A stretch of 64,000 nucleotides of DNA from Idiomarina tyrosinivorans. Its GTDB lineage: Bacteria > Pseudomonadota > Gammaproteobacteria > Enterobacterales > Alteromonadaceae. A program made the translations under genes and the position numbers. Of the stretch, positions 21,183 to 47,681 are shown in pieces; positions within the stretch are counted from its first letter, which is position 1, and each line of letters begins with the position of its first letter. The notes beneath the pieces are model-generated. The model had not been told where the DNA came from and made no database searches. It worked only from the letters and a program-made list of their open reading frames with translations. The stretch is from NCBI RefSeq assembly GCF_003987475.1, contig NZ_PIQH01000003.1, positions 186,001 through 250,000 of the forward strand, given 5' to 3'.

Positions 21183-21200
21183 TCACCTAGGCTTAAAAGA

Positions 21201-21230
21201 AAAGCCACGCAATGTTGCGTGGCTTTTTTT
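21201..21230. terminator. Bidirectional rho-independent terminator
   Basis: A perfect 12-bp stem (AAAGCCACGCAA, loop TG, TTGCGTGGCTTT) is followed by T residues on the plus strand and has A residues before it, giving a T tract on the minus strand too. It lies between the convergent MAPEG and subtilase genes and can end both. Confidence 0.92.
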
Positions 21231-23435: not shown

Positions 23436-23782
23436 AATAACCCTGTTGTTGTTATTTATACGTTACTTATCGAAATGACGAACCGCATAAATCGTCATAC
23501 AAGATGGTGTTTTATTGTTACTAAATTGTAAATAAATTTTTTGACGTCAAAAATCGTCGAAAAGATAATGTTTTGACGTGGTGAAAAAGTCGCCAAAATC
23601 CCCAGTTTACGGGGGATCTATGGTGAAAGTTTGTTATTTAACAACGCTTTTATATTCTCAGTAGGAATATAGTAGAATAAATTGATCTATATTTTTCACC
23701 GGGTTATATGACGTTTCTAATAGGTCGAGATTACTAGGTTGGCGTGCTACTATTTACTCTGTCAGTGGGAGGAGTAATTGAT
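23436..23782. promoter_or_regulatory. 347-base divergent control region (subtilase / malic enzyme) with a 16-bp palindrome
   Basis: No gene is supported here. It is AT-rich and must hold both promoters. A perfect 16-bp palindrome, TTTTTGAC/GTCAAAAA, lies at 23538-23553, and its half TTTTGACGT recurs at 23571-23579, suggesting an operator with an extra half-site about 100 bases upstream of the protease. A second inverted repeat (ATATTC, 7 bases, GAATAT; 23652-23670) lies near TATAGT on the malic-enzyme side. No regulator can be assigned. Confidence 0.5.
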
Positions 23783-25495
23783 ATGCCGAAGTCTGCAAAA
23801 AGCCTTGCAAATACCGATAAAGATCCACTTTATATCCCTTACGCGGGGCCGTCGTTACTTGAAACGCCGTTGCTGAATAAAGGCAGTGCTTTCTCTGAGG
23901 AGGAACGTGCCGCATTTAATTTGACCGGGCTACTGCCTCCACGCTACGAGACAATTGAAGAACAGGCGGAACGTGCCTATATGCAGTACTCGAGCTTTGA
24001 TACGCCGCTCAATAAGCATATTTATTTGCGCGCCATTCAAGATAACAACGAGACGCTGTTTTATCGTCTGCTGACCGACCACATCGACGAAATGATGCCG
24101 ATTATCTATACCCCGACGGTCGGCGACGCTTGCGAGAAATTTTCTGATATTTACCGTTCATCTCGGGGGCTATTTATCTCTTACTCAGAGCGTGACCATC
24201 TTGATGACATCCTTCGTAACGCCACCAAAGAGAAAGTGAAGGTGATTGTTGTTACCGATGGTGAGCGGATCTTGGGTTTGGGTGACCAAGGTATCGGCGG
24301 GATGGGTATCCCGATTGGTAAATTGTCGCTGTACACCGCCTGTGGCGGAATCAGCCCAGCCTATACCTTGCCCGTGATGTTAGATGTTGGAACCAATAAC
24401 GAGAAGTTATTGAACGACCCGATGTACATGGGCGCGCGGCACAAGCGCATTAACCAAGATGAATACGACGAGTTCATCGACAAATTTATCAAGGCTGTGA
24501 CCAAACGTTGGCCTGATGTGATGCTGCAGTTTGAAGATTTTGCCCAGCCTAATGCGATGCCCCTGTTGAACCGCTATCGCGATGAAGTCTGCTGTTTTAA
24601 TGACGACATCCAAGGAACTGCTTCAGTGACGGTCGGAACGTTACTGGCGGCGTGTCGTAAAAAGGGCGTTAAACTGCGCGACCAAAAAGTGGTGTTTGTT
24701 GGCGCCGGGTCAGCCGGTTGCGGCATTGCGGAACAAGTGATCATTCAAATGGTCGCCGAAGGTTTGGATGAAGAGCAGGCACGGCGCCAGGTGTTTATGG
24801 TCGACCGGGAGGGCTTGGTAACCGACAATTTGCCCAACATGCGGGACTTCCAAAAAGTGCTAGCTCACCCTGAATCATCGCTATCCGACTGGCAATACAG
24901 CGGTGACTATCCTTCGTTGTTGGATGTGATTCATTGTGCCGACCCAACAGTATTGATAGGTGTTTCGGGGCAGCCCGGCTTATTCACCGAGCAAGTGGTG
25001 CGAGCAATGGCTAAGCAACAGCAACAGCCAATCATTTTTCCACTGAGCAATCCGTCCAAGCATGTTGAGGCGCATCCTCGAGATGTGCTGGAGTGGACCG
25101 ATGGTAAAGCCATCATTGCTACTGGCAGCCCATTTGGTGAGGTAGATTGGAACGGCGACACTTACCCGATTGCACAATGCAATAACAGTTACATCTTCCC
25201 AGGAATTGGCTTGGGGGTTATCGCTGTGCGCTCGAAATTGGTGAGTGATGAGATGTTTCGCGTTGCCAGTAAAACGCTTGCGGAAGCTTCTCCCTCAGCC
25301 AATAGTAAAGGCGAGAACTTATTGCCTCCGCTCACTGAACTTGGCGCGTTGAGCAAAAAGATTGCTTTTGCCGTCGGTAAAGTGGCTCAGCAAGAAGGTT
25401 TGGCGCTGGAAATTGACGATGAAGTATTGACCCAGCGCATTAACAAGCAATTTTGGAACCCAGAATACCGCTTTTACAAGCGCGTCAGCATTTAA
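23783..25495 (+). CDS. maeA: NAD-dependent malic enzyme
   Basis: 570 residues (start ATG 23783 with GGGAGGAG upstream; an upstream in-frame start is less likely). It decarboxylates malate to pyruvate with NAD reduction. [13 protein letters not shown] is the malic-enzyme signature, [21 protein letters not shown] the conserved core, FEDFAQPNA and [11 protein letters not shown] the metal- and malate-binding stretches, and [14 protein letters not shown] the NAD Rossmann motif. Length and motifs match the large E. coli MaeA (SfcA) class. The 3' end overlaps the convergent PLP enzyme by 4 nt inside a hairpin. Confidence 0.95.
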
Positions 25496-25503
25496 GCTGA
25501 CGC
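25482..25503. terminator. Hairpin formed by the coding ends of two convergent genes
   Basis: GCGTCAGC (25482-25489), loop ATTTAA, GCTGACGC (25496-25503): a perfect 8-bp stem. The TTAA at 25492-25495 in the loop supplies the TAA stop of the malic enzyme on one strand and of the PLP enzyme on the other. There is no U tract, so it may act as a barrier or 3'-end stabiliser rather than a classical terminator. Confidence 0.6.
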
Positions 25504-26655
25504 CGCTTCGATGGCTTGACGAAGATCCTCAAACAGCTCCTGAGGATCTTCAATCCCTACCGAGAGTCGTAACAAATCAGCGGGCACTGGCGTACCCTCT
25601 CCCTCAATGCTAGCACGGTGTTCAATGAGGCTTTCTACCCCGCCTAACGAGGTCGCGCGCTTCCATATTTGGGTGCGTGCCGCGGTGCCTATCGCCGCCG
25701 CTTCACCCGCACTAATCCGCACCGAGAGCATGCCGCCGAAACCACCTTGCATTTGTTGCTTAGCAATTTCGTGTCCAGCAAACGACGGTAATCCGGGATA
25801 AAGCACTGCAGCAACGCTTGGCAGTTGTTCCAGTTGCTCAGCAATCCACTGTGCCGCTTCGCAGCTTTGTTTGACGCGCAATACTAGGGTGCGCATGCCA
25901 CGCAATAGTTGGCTGGCCTCAAATGGGCCTAAGACATTGCCAGATTGTGCACGCAAGCGCACAATCCGTTGCCAAAACTCAGAGTTTTCGCGGCTCGCCA
26001 AAGCACCAGCAATCACATCCGAGTGGCCATTAAGGTATTTGGTGGCGGAGTGCATAACAATATCAGCACCGAGTTCTAGCGGTCTAGATAACACCGGCGT
26101 AGCCACGGTTGAATCGACCGCAACAAGCGCGCCGTGTTGATGCGCTAAATCACTCACTTTGGCGATATCGGTGACGGTCCACAATGGATTCCCTGGCGTT
26201 TCAATCCACACTAACCGCGTTGGTGCTTCAGCAAGCGCGCTGCGGACTTGTGCTAAATCGTCCATGTCTACCCAACGAACTTGCAGCCCCATGTCTGCGC
26301 CAAAGGTCTTTAACCAGTTGCGCAACGCCCAGTACATTACCTTTGGGGCAAGCATGCGGTCGCCGGGCTTTAACGCCTGGAAAACGGTGGTTGCGGCGGC
26401 GTTGCCGGATGCAAATAGCTTGGCATCGATTGCATTCTCTAGCGATGCGATTACGCGCTCGGCGGGCAAATATGAAGGGTTGTCCGCGCGTGAGTATATC
26501 CTTCCGGAGCGATACTGATTATCGGCATCACGCAAGTAGGTGGTGGATACGTGTATTGGGGCAATCAAGCTCCCGCTAGCTTGGTCAATTTCTCCCAGTG
26601 CTTGCGCGACTCTAGTTTGCATAGAAGAAAAAGATGAAGATTTTGCTTGGCTCAC
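25492..26655 (-). CDS. Cystathionine gamma-synthase-like PLP enzyme (Cys/Met metabolism family)
   Basis: A GTG at 26655 with TGAGG seven bases upstream gives 387 residues, close to E. coli MetB (386); the ATG at 26706 lacks a good ribosome-binding site. PLP-binding lysine lies in [12 protein letters not shown]; the cofactor cradle is [15 protein letters not shown], and IYSRADNPS matches the family's YSRxxNP. The enzyme could join cysteine to an activated homoserine (MetB) or cleave cystathionine (MetC-like). The C-terminal [14 protein letters not shown] with [10 protein letters not shown] is the standard family signature. The final codons form the hairpin shared with the malic enzyme. Confidence 0.87.
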
Positions 26656-26727
26656 GGTAAACCTCAAACAGAATTGGCTCGTATAGATAGGTGAATTTTC
26701 GTTCATTGACTATAGAGGTTAGTTATT

Positions 26728-27205: not shown

Positions 27206-27234
27206 AACGGCGGGGCTGGCGCTCCGCCGTTTTG
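27206..27234 (+). terminator. Terminator hairpin after azurin
   Basis: AACGGCGG (27206-27213) pairs with CCGCCGTT (27224-27231) across a 10-base loop and is followed by a short T run. It separates azurin from the downstream efflux operon. Confidence 0.65.
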
Positions 27235-27249
27235 CTGACAGAGACAAAT

Positions 27250-28329
27250 ATGACTAAGTGGTTAACGACATTACTGTTTGCTAGCAGTTTACTGATGCCG
27301 ATGGCAAGCCAAGCACAGCAACGCGAGCAGCGTGCTGAATTAGTGATTGTGCAACCGTTACAGTTCGAGCGTGCGCAACAAGTGGTGGAAGCGGTAGGAA
27401 CAGCTCAAGCAATGCGTTCAGTCGCACTGTACCCGAATGTCGCTGACCGCGTGACTGGGGTACATTTTACCCCGGGCGAGCATGTCGATGCAGGAGAGCT
27501 GTTACTTGAGCTCGATGCGCGGCATCAACGAATTGCCGTACAACAGGCTCAAATTACTCTGCGAGATGCTGAACGTAAGGTAACTCGTCTGCGTAAGAGT
27601 GAGCAAGGTGGTGCTGTTCCGCAATCAGAATTAGATGATGCGATAACTGCGCGAGATCTTGCCGCAATAGCGTTAGACCAAGCCCGAGTTGAACTGGATG
27701 ACCGTCGCGTTTATGCGCCGTTCGCCGGTGTTGTCGGACTCACCGACGTGGAGGTGGGTGACCGCATTACCGAGCAGACATTGATTACCACTATCGACGA
27801 TCGCTCTCAATTATTGATCGAATTCACTGCACCAGAATCGGCTTTACCCTTGCTGCAACAGGGGGCGGAACTGCGTTTTAGCCCATGGGCGTTCGCCGAC
27901 CGCCAAGTAACGGCAACAGCCGTGGAACTGGATTCAAGAATTGATCCGCAAACGCGAATGATCCGCGCACGAGCCAAAATTCCCAACCCAAACGACGAAT
28001 TTCTGCCAGGCATGAGTTTTCGCGCGACGTTAAGTTTAGCCGGTGAGTGCTTTGCCGTTATTCCTGAAGCAGCATTGCTATGGGGCGCCAATAGTCCCTA
28101 TGTGTGGCTGGCTAAGCAGCAGACAGCACAGCGCATTGAAGTCCAGATTGAACAACGTTTAGCTGGACGTGTTTTAGTCAGTGGTGAGTTGCACCAAGGC
28201 GACATTCTTATTACCGAGGGTGTACAAAGCTTGCGCGACGGACAAGCGATACGCTACCAGCATGCACAGCTCGACGAACCGGTTGCTGAACAAGAAGTGC
28301 CTGCTGCTGTTGGCGCCAGCGGAGAATAA
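27250..28329 (+). CDS. RND efflux periplasmic adaptor (membrane fusion protein)
   Basis: 359 residues from the ATG at 27250, giving a signal peptide ending ASQAQQ; a TTG at 27232 is less likely. It contains a lipoyl-like segment (GVHFTPGEHVDAGELLLELDARHQRIAVQQ), a short helical hairpin with DAERKVTRLRKSEQGGAVPQSELDDA, then a second lipoyl half (VYAPFAGVVGLTDVEVGDRI) and beta-barrel domains. This is the HlyD/AcrA-type adaptor that links the inner-membrane pump to an outer-membrane channel. It is followed three bases later by the pump; no channel gene is nearby, so a TolC encoded elsewhere is needed. Confidence 0.9.
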   Translation: MTKWLTTLLFASSLLMPMASQAQQREQRAELVIVQPLQFERAQQVVEAVGTAQAMRSVALYPNVADRVTGVHFTPGEHVDAGELLLELDARHQRIAVQQAQITLRDAERKVTRLRKSEQGGAVPQSELDDAITARDLAAIALDQARVELDDRRVYAPFAGVVGLTDVEVGDRITEQTLITTIDDRSQLLIEFTAPESALPLLQQGAELRFSPWAFADRQVTATAVELDSRIDPQTRMIRARAKIPNPNDEFLPGMSFRATLSLAGECFAVIPEAALLWGANSPYVWLAKQQTAQRIEVQIEQRLAGRVLVSGELHQGDILITEGVQSLRDGQAIRYQHAQLDEPVAEQEVPAAVGASGE

Positions 28330-28332
28330 CCC

Positions 28333-31300
28333 ATGGCAAACCATTCAGCGCAACCATATAGTAAACATGACGCTAAAGCACAGTCAGAACTAGTCAACGA
28401 TTTACCTTCTGCGTCTATTCGTCGTCCAGTGCTGATAGTGGTGCTAAATATCCTTATCGTAATCGCCGGGATAGCGGCACTTATGGGGGTGGAAGTCCGC
28501 GAGTTACCTGATGTTGACCGCCCAGTGTTGACAGTGCGGGCATTTCTACCAGGCGCCGCACCAGAAACCGTTGATGCGGAGTTAACCAGCGTACTTGAAG
28601 GCGCCGCAGCGCGGGTGTCGGGGGTGAAATCTATTCGTTCGCAGTCGGAAGAAAATAATGCCCGCATCGTGGTGGAATTCAATCCTGGTGTCGATTTAGA
28701 TGTGGTAGCCAGTGAAACTCGCGAAGCCGTTAGCCAAGTACAAAACCGACTGCCGGAGGACGTTGAGCAAGTGACCGTGGTTAAAGCGGATGACGATGCC
28801 CGTGCAGTGCTCGACATTGCGGTCTCTAGCGATAGCCTTAGCCTTGAACAATTGACTCGGCGCTTAGAAACCGATTTAGCCCCAGAGTTTTTAGCCATTG
28901 AAGGGGTGGCCGACGTACAGCTTAATGGCGATCGGGAGCGAGTGTTACGCGTTGCTTTAGATCCCCTCAAGCTTTCCAGTTATGGTTTGTCGGTAACGGA
29001 TGTCGCTAATGCCTTGCGGCAAGCTCCTTTTGATGTGCCAGCGGGCAGCTTTCGCTCAACTGATCAACGCCTGATTGTTCGTGCTGATGCAACGTCGGTG
29101 ACCGCTCAGCAAGTAGAAGACATTTACATTAACGATACCACGCGCATTGGCGATGTGGCGCAAGCCTATTTTTCGCCGGCCGACGCAGAAAGTTTCGTGC
29201 GCTTGGATGGCAAGCCAGTGGTCGGCTTAGGAATTATTCGTCAGGCTGGCTCTAACACCATTGAGATATCCGACAAAGCACTAAAAATGGTTGAGCGGCT
29301 GCGTAAGCGTTTTCCTGATATGAGCATGACGGTCACCAACGACGATGCCGAATTTATTCGCAAATCTGTGACCGAAGTGGTGATCACGCTGGGTATTACC
29401 ATCGCCTTAGTGGTCGCAACCCTGTGGGTATTTATCGGCTCGCTACGAGCAACCATTGTGCCGGCGTTCTCCATTCCGGTTGCCTTGTTCGGTGCAGTGG
29501 CCGCCATTTGGTTGCTAGGCTTTTCGGTGAATATTCTGACCTTGTTAGCGTTGGTGCTGGCAACCGGCTTGATTGTTGACGATGCCATTGTTGTGGCAGA
29601 AAACATTCAGCGTCGCCGTGCAGAAGGTTTGGGCCCTCGAGCCGCTGCGGTACTGGGAACCCGAGAGGTATTCTTTGCGGTTATCGCGACAACCGCGGTA
29701 TTAGCGGCGGTGTTTCTCCCCATTGCCTTTTTACCCTCTACTGCAGGCCGTTTGTTCCGTGAATTTGGCGGTGTGCTGGCGGCAGCGGTATTGATATCGT
29801 CATTCGTGGCGTTGTCGTTGGTGCCGGCTTTTACTGCACGCTTGCCAAAAGATGCCGGTAAAAAGAACATCTTTGCTGGCGCGGGATTGCGTGCTCGCGA
29901 GTTTTATCATCGCAGCTTAAAACTGGCATTACGATGGCCATGGACTGTGTTCTTGGCTTCATTGTTGGCTGCGGGAGGCGGCGCTTGGCTGTATAACTCG
30001 GTAGATAATGAGCTGTTACCCAGCGAAGACCGTGGTGTTATACGAGTGTTTGCCAGTGGTCCCGACGGCGTTGGCCTGAACTTTATGGACCGCCAAGCAC
30101 GGCAATTAGAGGGAATTCTGAAGCCGTATCTAAAGCAGGGTGAAATTGAATCGCTGTACACTGTCGTCGGTCAGTGGGACGTGAATAGGGTCTTGATCAC
30201 CGCTCCGCTAGTGGATTGGGAGCAACGCCAGCGCTCGCAGCAGCAGATCAGTGCGGAGTTACGCGGCCCCGTTTCTGCGGTGCCTGGAGCTCCAGGGCGC
30301 GTATTCAGTTCTAACAGTTTGAATTTACGCGGCCAAGGCGGTGGCCTTGAGCTGGCGATCACCGGTGAAAAATACCAACAGATTTATCAAGTCGCACAGC
30401 AATTCGCTGCAGCGGTTGAACAACGCTTTCCCGCGCTGAAGAATCCTCAGATCTCGTTTCAGCCAACCCAGCCCCAGCTAAGGGTTAAAATTGATCGTTC
30501 GCGTGCGGCGGAGCTAGGCGTTGACCTTAACGAAGTGTCTGCGACACTGCGCGCCGCAATCAGTGGCGATGATATCGCTGACTTGAATGTCGGCGACCAA
30601 GCCATTCCGTTAATCTTGCAAACCCGCATGAATGCCATTAAAGCACCCTCTGATTTACAGAACCTCTACGTCAAAGGACGTGCGGGGCAACTAGTGCCGC
30701 TGTCGAGTATCGCCGAGATTGTTGAAGAGGGCGTTTCAGCAGAATTAGAGCGGCATGCCCAGCGGCGCGCTATCGAAATTAGCATGGACTTGCCAGAAAG
30801 CTATCCGATGGAACAAGCAGTGGATGAGTTGCGCAATTTAGCGCAAGAAATGCTTCCAGACGGCAATGGTTTGGTGTTTTTAGGCGAGGCTGCAACCTAC
30901 GAAGATACCCAAAACGAAGTAGCGTTGACCTATTTACTGGCATTTATTGTGGTTTTCTTAGTACTGGCTGCACAGTTTGAGAGCGTTAACAGCGCAACGG
31001 TGGTTATGGCGACCGTCCCGTTCGGCATTGCAGCCGCCATTTATGCGCTGTTTTTAACCGATACCTCGCTGAACATTTATTCGCAGATTGGCTTGGTGAT
31101 GTTGATTGGTTTGCTGGCAAAGAATGCGGTGCTATTGGTCGAATTTGCCGACCAATTGCGCGATCGAGGGCAGAGTGTTGCCGATGCAGTAGAAAATGCC
31201 GCTATCATCCGCTTGCGGCCGATTATGATGACCTTGGTATCGACGGTTCTTGGTGGTTTACCGCTGATTTTATCCAACGGCGCGGGTGCAGAGGCGCGAA

Positions 31301-31464
31301 ACGCCATTGGTTGGGTAGTATTTGGCGGACTTGGGTTAGCCACGGTGTTCACGCTTTATTTAACGCCGATCATTTACGTCGCGTTGGCGCGTTTTACTAA
31401 GCCGCGTGCAGATGAAAGTGAACGCTTACATCAAGAATTATTGGCTGCTGAGCAAGCGGATTAA
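28333..31464 (+). CDS. RND multidrug efflux permease (HAE-1 type)
   Basis: 1043 residues with the twelve-helix RND plan: helix 1 (VLIVVLNILIVIAGIAALMG), a large periplasmic loop, helices 2-6, helix 7, a second loop, and helices 8-12. The helix 4 segment LVLATGLIVDDAIVVAENIQRR carries the paired aspartates of the proton relay of drug-type pumps. An extra polar extension of about 25 residues precedes helix 1. GGAGAATAACCC precedes the ATG. It forms a two-gene operon with the adaptor. Substrates are unknown. The 3' end lies in a perfect palindrome with the convergent gene. Confidence 0.93.
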   Translation: MANHSAQPYSKHDAKAQSELVNDLPSASIRRPVLIVVLNILIVIAGIAALMGVEVRELPDVDRPVLTVRAFLPGAAPETVDAELTSVLEGAAARVSGVKSIRSQSEENNARIVVEFNPGVDLDVVASETREAVSQVQNRLPEDVEQVTVVKADDDARAVLDIAVSSDSLSLEQLTRRLETDLAPEFLAIEGVADVQLNGDRERVLRVALDPLKLSSYGLSVTDVANALRQAPFDVPAGSFRSTDQRLIVRADATSVTAQQVEDIYINDTTRIGDVAQAYFSPADAESFVRLDGKPVVGLGIIRQAGSNTIEISDKALKMVERLRKRFPDMSMTVTNDDAEFIRKSVTEVVITLGITIALVVATLWVFIGSLRATIVPAFSIPVALFGAVAAIWLLGFSVNILTLLALVLATGLIVDDAIVVAENIQRRRAEGLGPRAAAVLGTREVFFAVIATTAVLAAVFLPIAFLPSTAGRLFREFGGVLAAAVLISSFVALSLVPAFTARLPKDAGKKNIFAGAGLRAREFYHRSLKLALRWPWTVFLASLLAAGGGAWLYNSVDNELLPSEDRGVIRVFASGPDGVGLNFMDRQARQLEGILKPYLKQGEIESLYTVVGQWDVNRVLITAPLVDWEQRQRSQQQISAELRGPVSAVPGAPGRVFSSNSLNLRGQGGGLELAITGEKYQQIYQVAQQFAAAVEQRFPALKNPQISFQPTQPQLRVKIDRSRAAELGVDLNEVSATLRAAISGDDIADLNVGDQAIPLILQTRMNAIKAPSDLQNLYVKGRAGQLVPLSSIAEIVEEGVSAELERHAQRRAIEISMDLPESYPMEQAVDELRNLAQEMLPDGNGLVFLGEAATYEDTQNEVALTYLLAFIVVFLVLAAQFESVNSATVVMATVPFGIAAAIYALFLTDTSLNIYSQIGLVMLIGLLAKNAVLLVEFADQLRDRGQSVADAVENAAIIRLRPIMMTLVSTVLGGLPLILSNGAGAEARNAIGWVVFGGLGLATVFTLYLTPIIYVALARFTKPRADESERLHQELLAAEQAD

Positions 31465-31474
31465 TCCGCTTGCT
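31451..31474. terminator. Perfect 24-bp palindrome spanning two overlapping stop codons
   Basis: AGCAAGCGGATT (31451-31462) is followed immediately by its exact reverse complement (31463-31474). TTAA at 31461-31464 provides TAA stops for both the RND permease (+) and the binding protein (-), and both proteins end in the same residues, QAD. No U tract follows. A cruciform or a 3'-end hairpin in either mRNA is possible. Confidence 0.7.
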
Positions 31475-32189
31475 TGAACCATTCATCCCGCAATTTTTCT
31501 AAGGTGCCATCGGCTTCCAATGTCGCTAACGCTTGGTTGATACCTTGCAAGCGCTGCTGGTTACCCCGTCTAACCGCAAACGCGACCTCGGTCTTATCGT
31601 GGGGGCGCCACAACACGCGAACCTTGCCATGCTGCTGTTGAGCCAAATATTTGCCCACCTGCAGTGGCATGATCACCGCCTCGACCTCGCCTGCCAGTAA
31701 GCGAGACATGGCCTCTTGCTTACTCGCGGTGTGCATCACTCGCATACTGCTGTATATACCCAAGGCTTTTAACTGGTTCTCTAGCTCTGATTGGCGATCG
31801 CCGGTGATTTTTTTGCCAGTGAGGTCGGCAACCGTCTCGGCAGCGCTGGCCTCGTCACGCACAAAAATCACGGTTTCGCGAGCATAATAAGGTTGGCTAA
31901 AAGCGAAATAGGGCAGGCGCTCTTGGGTGATCTCCATTCCCGCAGCGATATCAATTTCCCCAAACCGCAACAACCCGACAACATCGTCCCAGTCGTATTG
32001 CTGAAGATCTAGCGGTTCGTTCATGCGGTCAAAAACGGCGCGCGCGACGGCAACATCGAAGCCAGTGATTTCACCGGCGATATCGAACTGGTAAGGTGGG
32101 TAGCCAGTGGCTACCCCCACTTCATCAGCGGCAAAGCTTGGGGGAGACAATAATATTGTCAGTAATCCGATTGCGCCGATAGCCTTCAC
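31461..32189 (-). CDS. Periplasmic solute-binding protein, family 3
   Basis: 242 residues with a signal peptide (to PSFAAD) and a complete SBP_bac_3 fold: VGVATGYPPYQF, ITGFDVAVARAVFDRM, FGEIDIAAGMEITQERLPYFAFSQPYY, LTGKKITG, and the final LATLEADGTLEKLRDEWF. The domain usually captures amino acids or other small polar solutes. No ABC permease or ATPase adjoins it. Instead it starts with an ATGA overlap at the end of the TerB-like gene in a histidine-kinase operon, so a sensing role with the kinase is possible. It ends in the palindrome shared with the RND gene. Confidence 0.85.
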   Translation of the reverse strand: MKAIGAIGLLTILLSPPSFAADEVGVATGYPPYQFDIAGEITGFDVAVARAVFDRMNEPLDLQQYDWDDVVGLLRFGEIDIAAGMEITQERLPYFAFSQPYYARETVIFVRDEASAAETVADLTGKKITGDRQSELENQLKALGIYSSMRVMHTASKQEAMSRLLAGEVEAVIMPLQVGKYLAQQQHGKVRVLWRPHDKTEVAFAVRRGNQQRLQGINQALATLEADGTLEKLRDEWFKQAD

Positions 32190-32647
32190 TCGCCGGTAAC
32201 CTCTAATTTCGTTTTGATGTAATCACTATGACGTAAATATAGCAGGTCGGCGATTTGCCGCATCATTGCTTCTTCGTATGGGTCTAACTTGCCATCGGCA
32301 TACGCCGTTTGCCAGAGTTGTTTGATTAACTGCACGCGGTCAGGGTAAGAAAGGGCTTTTAGTGGTGCGGTTACTTCCTGTAACGAACTGGCTCCTTCAC
32401 CATAGTCTGAGGCTTTTTCAAAGGCTGCAGTGGCTTGTTGTTCGGAAAGTCCCGATTCTTTTACCAATTGTGTAATGATCCAGCGAGTTTCCGTTCCGTC
32501 GCGTTGATTATCGGCACGACTCATTTCGCTCATCAACACCAGCCCTTGAACCTGTGCTTCGCTGAGCCCGTCAATTTGTGGTAGTGGTGATAATGATGCT
32601 TGATTATCCTTAGCTTTATTCAGCAATGACTGTAAAGCGGCAAACAT
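32186..32647 (-). CDS. TerB-like (tellurite-resistance B fold) protein
   Basis: 153 residues, all helical. The second half has the TerB-like repeat pattern VQLIKQLWQTAYADGKLDPYEEAMMRQIADLL, with the acidic DGxLDxxE loop that binds metal or packs helices in this fold, and the first half has a matching VLMSEMSRADN segment. TerB-fold proteins are cytoplasmic and are linked to stress responses and membrane-associated complexes. The start has a strong GAGGAG. It lies 14 bases after the histidine kinase and overlaps the binding-protein gene, so the three are one operon. Confidence 0.75.
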   Translation of the reverse strand: MFAALQSLLNKAKDNQASLSPLPQIDGLSEAQVQGLVLMSEMSRADNQRDGTETRWIITQLVKESGLSEQQATAAFEKASDYGEGASSLQEVTAPLKALSYPDRVQLIKQLWQTAYADGKLDPYEEAMMRQIADLLYLRHSDYIKTKLEVTGE

Positions 32648-35025: not shown

Positions 35026-35030
35026 AAAAA

Positions 35031-35063
35031 TAATCCCAGCATATAGATAATGCTGGGATTATA
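35031..35063 (-). terminator. Terminator of the ABC exporter operon overlapping the lysR promoter
   Basis: TAATCCCAGCAT (35031-35042) pairs perfectly with ATGCTGGGATTA (35050-35061) over a 7-base loop. On the minus strand five T residues follow and run straight into the lysR ATG at 35025, so this is a good terminator for the operon ending at 35096. A perfect TATAAT (35063-35058, minus) overlaps the distal arm and could be the lysR -10 box; the region for a -35 is weak (TGGTGT). Confidence 0.8.
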
Positions 35064-39755: not shown

Positions 39756-39779
39756 AAGGCGCGTTCATCGACGCGCCTT
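39756..39779 (-). terminator. Rho-independent terminator of the iron-uptake operon
   Basis: AAGGCGCGT and ACGCGCCTT form a 9-bp stem over loop TCATCG; on the minus strand a run of seven T residues follows. It ends the leftward operon whose last gene stops at 39788 and insulates the ABC exporter operon. Confidence 0.9.
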
Positions 39780-46675: not shown

Positions 46676-47680
46676 ATGGCGGCGTTCGGAAAAACGTTTA
46701 TGCCGAAAATGACCTTGGCCAAGTATGAAAATGGTCAATGGCAAGAATTTAACTTAACCTCAGCGGAGCAATTGACGCTGCACCCAGGCGCACACGTATT
46801 GCATTATGCCAGTACCTGTTTCGAAGGGTTGAAAGCATTTCGTCACCGAGATGGCAGCGTGCATATTTTTCGCCTCGAGAATAATGTGGCGCGCATGCAA
46901 CAAAGCGCTCGGTTATTGAATCTGCCGGAAATTAATGCTGAGCAGCTGCGGGCGATGATCATCCGTGTCGTCGAGGAGTATGTTACCGAGGTACCCGAAC
47001 CGCCGGGCTCAATGTATATTCGGCCAACACTGATAGGCACCGAAGCCGCTATTGGTAAAGCCGCTGCACCGACCGATAGCGCAATGCTGTACGTTTTGCT
47101 TTCGCCGGTGGGGGATTACTTTGCGGGTGGAGAGCGGGCGTTACGGTTGTTGGTCGAAGAAGATGGCATGCGCTGTGCCGCGCACATGGGCATGATTAAA
47201 AGTGGTGGTAACTACGCGAGCGCAATGCCACATATTTTAGCGGCGAAAGCCGGACACCAAGCAGACCAAGTGTTGTTTGCTCCGAATGGCGATGTGCAGG
47301 AAACGGGCGCTGCTAACTTTTTATTGCTTGATGGTGACGAACTGATTACTAAGAATCTGGACTCGACCTTTTTGCATGGTATAACCCGTGATTCGCTATT
47401 AACCCTTGCGGCTGATATGGGCTATCGCGTTAGTGAGCGAGAACTCACAGTGTCGGAACTGCTAGAACGCGCTGCTCATGAAGATTGTGAGGCAGCATTG
47501 TCGGGTACCGCCGCAGTATTGGCGCCAGTGGGTGAACTGCTTCACAATGGCACATTGCACAAAGTGGGAAGCGGCAACATTGGCACTAAAGTCAAACAGC
47601 TTCGACAGGCACTCAATGCTATTCAATGGGGTCAAGCCGCCGATAAATATGGCTGGTTGACGCGTGTTAGTCAGCGCTAA
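46676..47680 (+). CDS. ilvE: Branched-chain amino acid aminotransferase
   Basis: 334 residues from the ATG at 46676 (AAGGATAAG upstream). Class IV PLP aminotransferase for Leu, Ile and Val: LHYASTCFEGLKAFR near the N-terminus, MYIRPTLIGTE, the PLP lysine in GMIKSGGNYASAMP, and the signature QETGAANFLLLDGDELITKNL and FLHGITRDSLL. The length is nearer the longer branched-chain aminotransferase class (about 330-360) than E. coli IlvE (309). It stands alone. The 3' end overlaps the convergent diguanylate cyclase gene by 14 nt. Confidence 0.93.
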   Translation: MAAFGKTFMPKMTLAKYENGQWQEFNLTSAEQLTLHPGAHVLHYASTCFEGLKAFRHRDGSVHIFRLENNVARMQQSARLLNLPEINAEQLRAMIIRVVEEYVTEVPEPPGSMYIRPTLIGTEAAIGKAAAPTDSAMLYVLLSPVGDYFAGGERALRLLVEEDGMRCAAHMGMIKSGGNYASAMPHILAAKAGHQADQVLFAPNGDVQETGAANFLLLDGDELITKNLDSTFLHGITRDSLLTLAADMGYRVSERELTVSELLERAAHEDCEAALSGTAAVLAPVGELLHNGTLHKVGSGNIGTKVKQLRQALNAIQWGQAADKYGWLTRVSQR

Positions 47681-47681
47681 C
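47666..47681. terminator. Short hairpin containing both stop codons of a convergent pair
   Basis: GTTAG (47666-47670), loop TCAGCG, CTAAC (47677-47681). The cyclase TAA (minus, 47669-47667) lies in one arm and the aminotransferase TAA (47678-47680) in the other. The stem is only 5 bp and there is no T run, so termination is doubtful, but the layout repeats that at 25482 and 31451. Confidence 0.4.

Follow-up and report, generated by a model that had tools for sequence, protein, structure and literature searches.

A palindrome on the shared stop codons of two convergent Idiomarina tyrosinivorans genes, a candidate two-way transcript-end hairpin

Gene-end hairpins in described systems and at the RND/SBP junction

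Bidirectional termination by head-on collision of RNA polymerases at convergent genes was reportedly described by Ju in 2019 and by Wang in 2023. In Escherichia coli, the part of a preprint available to us (PMC13082048) presents such collisions as a prevalent ending of convergent transcription, and describes a hairpin between the convergent genes ynaJ and uspE (8-bp stem) that positions the collisions and raises the half-life of the collided complex from about 6 to 150 min. Bidirectional intrinsic terminators of Bacillus cereus are more conserved than one-way ones, according to the portion consulted of a further study (PMC5381666), and gal mRNA, in the excerpts seen of its description (PMC9927376), is terminated by Rho and then trimmed by exonuclease back to a stem-loop that holds its stable 3' end. 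Within the titles and abstract openings of the open-licence literature, we found neither stop-overlapping palindromes at convergent genes nor Idiomarina terminators, which is no proof of absence.

We analyzed a 64,000-nucleotide stretch of the I. tyrosinivorans genome (the window), in which an RND efflux permease gene and a gene for a family-3 extracellular solute-binding protein (SBP) converge (Table 1). The initial annotation had reported a perfect 24-bp palindrome across their overlapping stops, with both proteins ending QAD, and this was confirmed: the sequence at 31451-31474, AGCAAGCGGATTAATCCGCTTGCT, is an exact palindrome of two 12-base arms (AGCAAGCGGATT/AATCCGCTTGCT) with zero spacer, and the proteins end ...LLAAEQAD (RND) and ...DEWFKQAD (SBP). 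The RND stop is the TAA at 31462-31464 of the forward strand and the SBP stop lies at 31461-31463 of the reverse strand, so that the 4-base overlap is the TTAA at the center of the palindrome. RNA of either strand can fold into a stem of 10 to 11 pairs with a UUAA loop (z of −2.97 and −3.50 against 200 dinucleotide shuffles), and a stable, G+C-containing stem-loop is thus present near the stop on both strands.

Table 1. Features of the window discussed in the text
Feature	Coordinates	Strand	Basis
Perfect 24-bp palindrome; RNA of either strand, 10-bp stem and UUAA loop	31451..31474	.	
TTAA common to the two stop codons, center of the palindrome	31461..31464	.	
RND efflux permease gene, AcrB/D/F type, ends QAD	28333..31464	+	Pfam
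Family-3 extracellular solute-binding protein (SBP) gene, SBP_bac_3, ends QAD	31461..32189	-	Pfam
HlyD-type membrane-fusion protein gene, just upstream of the RND gene	27232..28329	+	
TerB-domain gene, directly upstream of the SBP gene; neighborhood kept in congeners	32186..32647	-	
Second junction hairpin, 8-bp arms, loop ATTTAA, on the malic enzyme and Cys/Met-metabolism stops	25482..25503	.	
Malic enzyme gene, ends in the second hairpin	23744..25495	+	
Cys/Met-metabolism PLP enzyme gene, ends in the second hairpin	25492..26706	-	
Third site of the initial annotation, 5-bp arms, 14-base stop overlap, judged a non-member	47666..47681	.	

The site resembles ynaJ-uspE, as far as that locus is described in the accessible text, in its convergent genes, in the absence of a U-tract and in an end hairpin usable from both strands, with a stem of 8 bp there and 10 bp here; it differs in that the hairpin, here predicted from sequence, coincides with the overlapping stops and so falls within both coding sequences. 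With an intrinsic (Rho-independent) bidirectional terminator it shares a G+C-containing stem-loop beside the stop and common to both strands, but no U-tract follows the stem on either strand (tails TGAACCAT and CAGCAGCC). It should therefore not act as an ordinary intrinsic terminator, a reading that we rejected, and it was not among the sites listed by a terminator scan. The gal stem-loop is alike in fixing an mRNA end after trimming, but the excerpts seen do not describe it as palindromic or as common to two convergent mRNAs (PMC9927376). The kind of hairpin is already known, and the site is probably a local version of a known gene-end signal.

Chance expectation and convergent junctions across the genome

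The main null is that the palindrome is a functionless by-product of chance or mutation, reached in little-constrained protein tails through drift or through a template switch that copied one arm onto the other; we consider this somewhat unlikely. That a 24-base exact palindrome in coding sequence is improbable by chance, as the initial annotation had argued, holds against first-order Markov sequences, where zero-spacer palindromes with arms of at least 12 numbered 0 in 30 sequences of 64 kb (largest arm, 11), but not once both protein tails are given. With both protein ends fixed, 7.1% of 20,000 synonymous recodings produced a stem of at least 10, so that the shared QAD endings and the palindrome are largely one fact rather than two; a stem that is not rare on these terms speaks for the null. 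So do the long perfect inverted repeats found inside genes, of which 56 (arms of at least 9, spacer up to 8, wholly within coding sequence) were present in 1.11 Mb of the same genome. Two repeats of these dimensions lie at tight convergent junctions, namely the palindrome and C1 163724-163746. Zero-spacer repeats with arms of at least 12 that touch a coding region also number two among those listed in the 1.11 Mb, where repeats outside genes were counted but not itemized; the other, GGGTTAACGAGTTATTGCAATAACTCGTTAACCC, is perfect over 34 bp with zero spacer and sits at the edge of a gene (G000:C1:316179-316212).

What stands against the null is the exact placement on shared stops, together with the second case in the window with an 8-bp stem and four more junctions, which exceed synonymous and co-directional controls. 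These counts come from a survey of 1,110,792 bases of the genome (46%), the discovery window included, with genes called by a simple codon-score script rather than a standard gene finder; six contigs of 0.9-1.4 kb were left out and junctions too close to the end of a stretch were skipped. Junctions were called tight at a gap of −30 to +15, and a hairpin was assigned to a junction if its center fell within 10 bases of it. Because both of these limits, like the stem cut-offs, were chosen after inspection of a first sample, results are given for stems of 6, 7 and 8. Stems of at least 7 lay over the stops of 6 of 68 tight convergent junctions vs. 7 of 682 co-directional stops (Fisher, 0.00046), and the difference held when the two window junctions that had prompted the test were removed (Fisher, 0.011). 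The corresponding counts were 7/68 and 15/682 for stems of at least 6, and 4/68 and 2/682 for stems of at least 8. Under synonymous recoding, 0.53 junctions with stems of at least 7 were expected on average, and none of 300 sets reached the 6 observed. No U-tract flanks any of these six hairpins on either side.

Sharing of stop codons is a separate matter from the junction hairpins, only three of the six hairpin junctions having a 4-base stop overlap. In the surveyed bases, the overlap is exactly 4 bases in 29 of 139 convergent pairs, and in the first 444 kb (n = 15) it reads TTAA in 11, TTAG in 2 and CTAA and CTAG in 1 each; in the other sampled genomes, the count was 21 of 193 (G003, 3/22; G005, 3/27; G030, 2/26; G024, 3/25; G004, 7/67; G016, 3/26). 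Stop sharing is therefore common and needs no special account.

Among pooled congeners, stems of at least 7 were found at 4 of 49 tight junctions vs. 6 of 752 co-directional stops (p = 0.002). One of these four congener hairpins has T-runs in its stem and two have a T-rich flank, so three of the four may be ordinary terminators. Single congeners gave 0/6 (G003), 0/9 (G016) and 1/9 (G005), and small samples of two other genera of the family gave 1/10 (G030) and 0/9 (G024). Folding energy pointed the same way, if modestly: over all 68 junctions the mean z was −0.63 vs. −0.21 for gene interiors (p = 0.037; 0.074 when the two discovery junctions were omitted) and −0.05 for the last codons of co-directional genes (p = 0.004). 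The 21 junctions of G004 gave p = 0.009 and 0.00016 in the same two comparisons, and no significant shift from zero was seen in G003, G005, G030 or G024, each of which had 6 to 10 junctions.

Within the sampled part of the genome, junction hairpins are genuine, though a minority of junctions have one. The initial annotation had taken three sites to suggest that convergent gene ends are packed in a recurrent way in this genome, which is supported in part: the enrichment at tight junctions speaks for recurrence, whereas the feature is confined to a minority of them (about 9%) and two of the three examples qualify. The second site, 25482-25503, was as described, with 8-bp arms, a 6-base spacer and stops overlapping by TTAA. 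The third, 47666-47681, did not hold up, having 5-bp arms and a 14-base stop overlap, and it was excluded from the class because the sequence around it folds only slightly better than when shuffled (z of −1.63 and −1.06).

Several further hairpins were seen during the survey. An inverted repeat with 11-bp arms and a 9-base spacer at 25521-25551 starts 26 bases past the malic enzyme stop, so that the second junction has two hairpins; it sits within the coding end of the opposite gene and resembles the coding-embedded hairpins past the RND stop of congeners. Terminator-like hairpins with T-runs occur in the window at 21200-21227, 35030-35062 and 39756-39779, the first of which, being symmetric and between convergent genes, is probably a normal bidirectional terminator. 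On contig C15, at about 118540-118580 and at 139630-139665 (L037 and L038), long stem-loops carry the stop codon of the forward-strand gene in the loop; the gaps of these convergent pairs, 29 and 37 bases, place them outside the tight class.

The orthologous junction in congeners

The RND and SBP genes are convergent neighbors with a hairpin at their ends, and their order is kept in all 13 of the 18 congeners examined that have the SBP gene (E ≤ 1e-40; SBP identity at most 54%). In two of these 13, more than 1 kb is inserted between the genes: G012 (L009) and G002 (L010), the gene order of the latter being read from L078, a matching named record that has the same junction sequence and an RND stop 1.6 kb away. 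The insertion, of 1.4-1.6 kb, carries a putative HipB/HipA-type pair, judged by eye. Named records with the same junction (L072-L081) are all Idiomarina species or an Idiomarinaceae assembly, and two Pseudoalteromonas records (L082 and L083) have a relative of the SBP gene without an RND neighbor. Stop overlap among the congeners is 4 bases in two species, 17 in two, 20 in four and 23 in one; in others, gaps of 61 and 107 bases separate the stops.

The initial annotation had suggested a comparison of orthologous ends, and had named independent drift of the arms in relatives as half of what would speak against its reading; the congeners bear out that half. The palindrome was missing from the stops of all 13 with the junction (for G002, the SBP side was examined), and a conserved palindrome is thereby ruled out. 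This absence, like the SBP tail, which beyond its last conserved Trp varies between species in both sequence and length, is what the chance null would expect. Since the palindrome is absent from congeners and the tail is not conserved, the palindrome is specific to its own lineage, unlike the bidirectional terminators of B. cereus, which are the more conserved kind in the portion consulted of that study (PMC5381666).

Other hairpins occupy the same place. When the junctions of I. tyrosinivorans and 12 congeners (all but G002) were folded, hairpins recurred close after the RND stop, and they differed between species. In G001, a stem within the SBP gene precedes CTTTTTT and by appearance is an ordinary terminator; G007 has an 11-bp stem; G014, G009, G018 and G010 have one long hairpin in common, just past the RND stop in the SBP coding end; and the junctions of G017, G003 and G012 hold REP-like palindromes. 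On the SBP side of the 12 congener junctions, a marked hairpin was present only where REP-like repeats lie between the genes (G017 and G003).

We then asked how well the gene ends fold relative to recodings that keep both proteins fixed, using 10 of the 14 junctions, those with intergenic repeats or insertions being left out. With this test, in which the codon usage of G004 served for all congeners and several close relatives stand for few, non-independent lineages, the RND 3' end folded better than recodings in seven of nine congeners (z from −1.82 to −3.54: G006, −3.54; G004, −3.16; G007, −1.95; G014, −1.82; G009, −2.30; G018, −2.10; G010, −2.05) and showed no excess in the other two (G008, −0.07; G001, −0.43). 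The RND 3' end of I. tyrosinivorans had a z of −1.73, with 8 of 200 recodings as good. SBP 3' ends gave no clear excess in the same test (z from −1.01 to +1.68), and the SBP side of I. tyrosinivorans was unremarkable over a longer span (z of −0.87, 38 of 200 recodings as good).

The initial annotation had suggested looking for compensatory changes in the two arms; pairs altered on both sides were seen, but in the different hairpin shared by four congeners and not in the palindrome. In that hairpin (alignment A2), 3 of 22 pairs had changed on both sides, which 6 of 500 shuffles matched, and 96.6% of cells were paired, compared with 28.4-51.1% in partner-slid controls; further pair types were no better than shuffles (303/500). 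Support from this is modest, because a single one of the four sequences supplied the structure and all the double changes, three in number, belong to G010.

Mechanistic alternatives and a proposed two-way transcript-end hairpin

The main mechanistic rival is protection of 3' ends, whereby each transcript would read through into the opposite gene, be ended by Rho and be trimmed by 3'-5' exonucleases back to the stem, which would then guard both mRNAs. A stem without a U-tract fits this account, Rho is encoded in the genome (PF07497, above cut-off), and gal mRNA is a precedent in the excerpts seen (PMC9927376). Taken alone, however, it does not predict the preference for convergent over co-directional ends (6/68 vs. 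7/682), and we regard it as unlikely.

Far less probable still is that the palindrome is a DNA operator bound by some protein, a REP-type element or a DNA-uptake word whose position at gene ends is accidental: its dyad symmetry is perfect and REP-like repeats do occur at the RND/SBP junction of three congeners, but it occurs once in the whole genome (2.43 Mb, 21 contigs) even with up to 3 mismatches allowed, it lies at gene ends and not at a gene start, and its half-site words occur near the expected rate in 1.11 Mb (CAAGCGGAT, 13 observed vs. 13.6 expected; AGCAAGCGG, 39 vs. 33.6). An operator or repeat family, largely refuted by this uniqueness, and an uptake word, by the half-site counts, were accordingly rejected; the palindrome lacks the many genomic copies of a REP element. 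The genome does possess a REP-like word, GTAGCCTGTTGC, with 70 exact copies (reversed control, 0) on C1, C2, C3, C15, C17, C19 and C21, outside the window, mostly clustered on C17 and near contig ends; a Y1_Tnp match (PF01797, RAYT-like) lies between some of the copies at C17:56560-56898. The REP-like palindromes between the RND and SBP stops of G017, G003 and G012 (L006, L007 and L009; CCTGACG..CGTCAGG or CTGATGC..GCATCAG) are another version of this repeat.

By analogy with ynaJ-uspE, our tentatively favored reading of the palindrome is a lineage-specific hairpin that helps both transcripts to end, probably by setting the place where RNA polymerases collide head-on. Transcription arriving from either side would form the 10-bp stem and UUAA loop where the coding sequence ends; the hairpin would pause RNA polymerase and anchor it against backtracking when it meets the opposing polymerase, and head-on collisions could then end both transcripts near the shared stops. 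Transcript ends would accordingly be predicted at the site, and selection may have acted on this palindrome. Because the protein tails vary between species, each lineage can build its own hairpin here.

A wider reading, which is possible but doubtful, is that in compact Idiomarina genomes, stop-overlapping convergent genes carry a shared end signal inside both coding sequences, where codon choice and free C-terminal tails would be shaped into a hairpin without a U-tract. Lineages would use different hairpins (a palindrome on the stops, a hairpin in the end of the opposite gene, a U-tract terminator or REP-like repeats), together making up a general, fast-turning-over layer of bidirectional termination. 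Whether a hairpin lacking a U-tract is enough to terminate in both directions could be tested cleanly at the site, and the syntenic junction allows the gain and loss of hairpins to be tracked across about a dozen species. If the transcript-end reading of the palindrome is true, it would show compact genomes ending head-on gene pairs without a spacer, the signal lying inside both coding sequences and the protein tails yielding to it.
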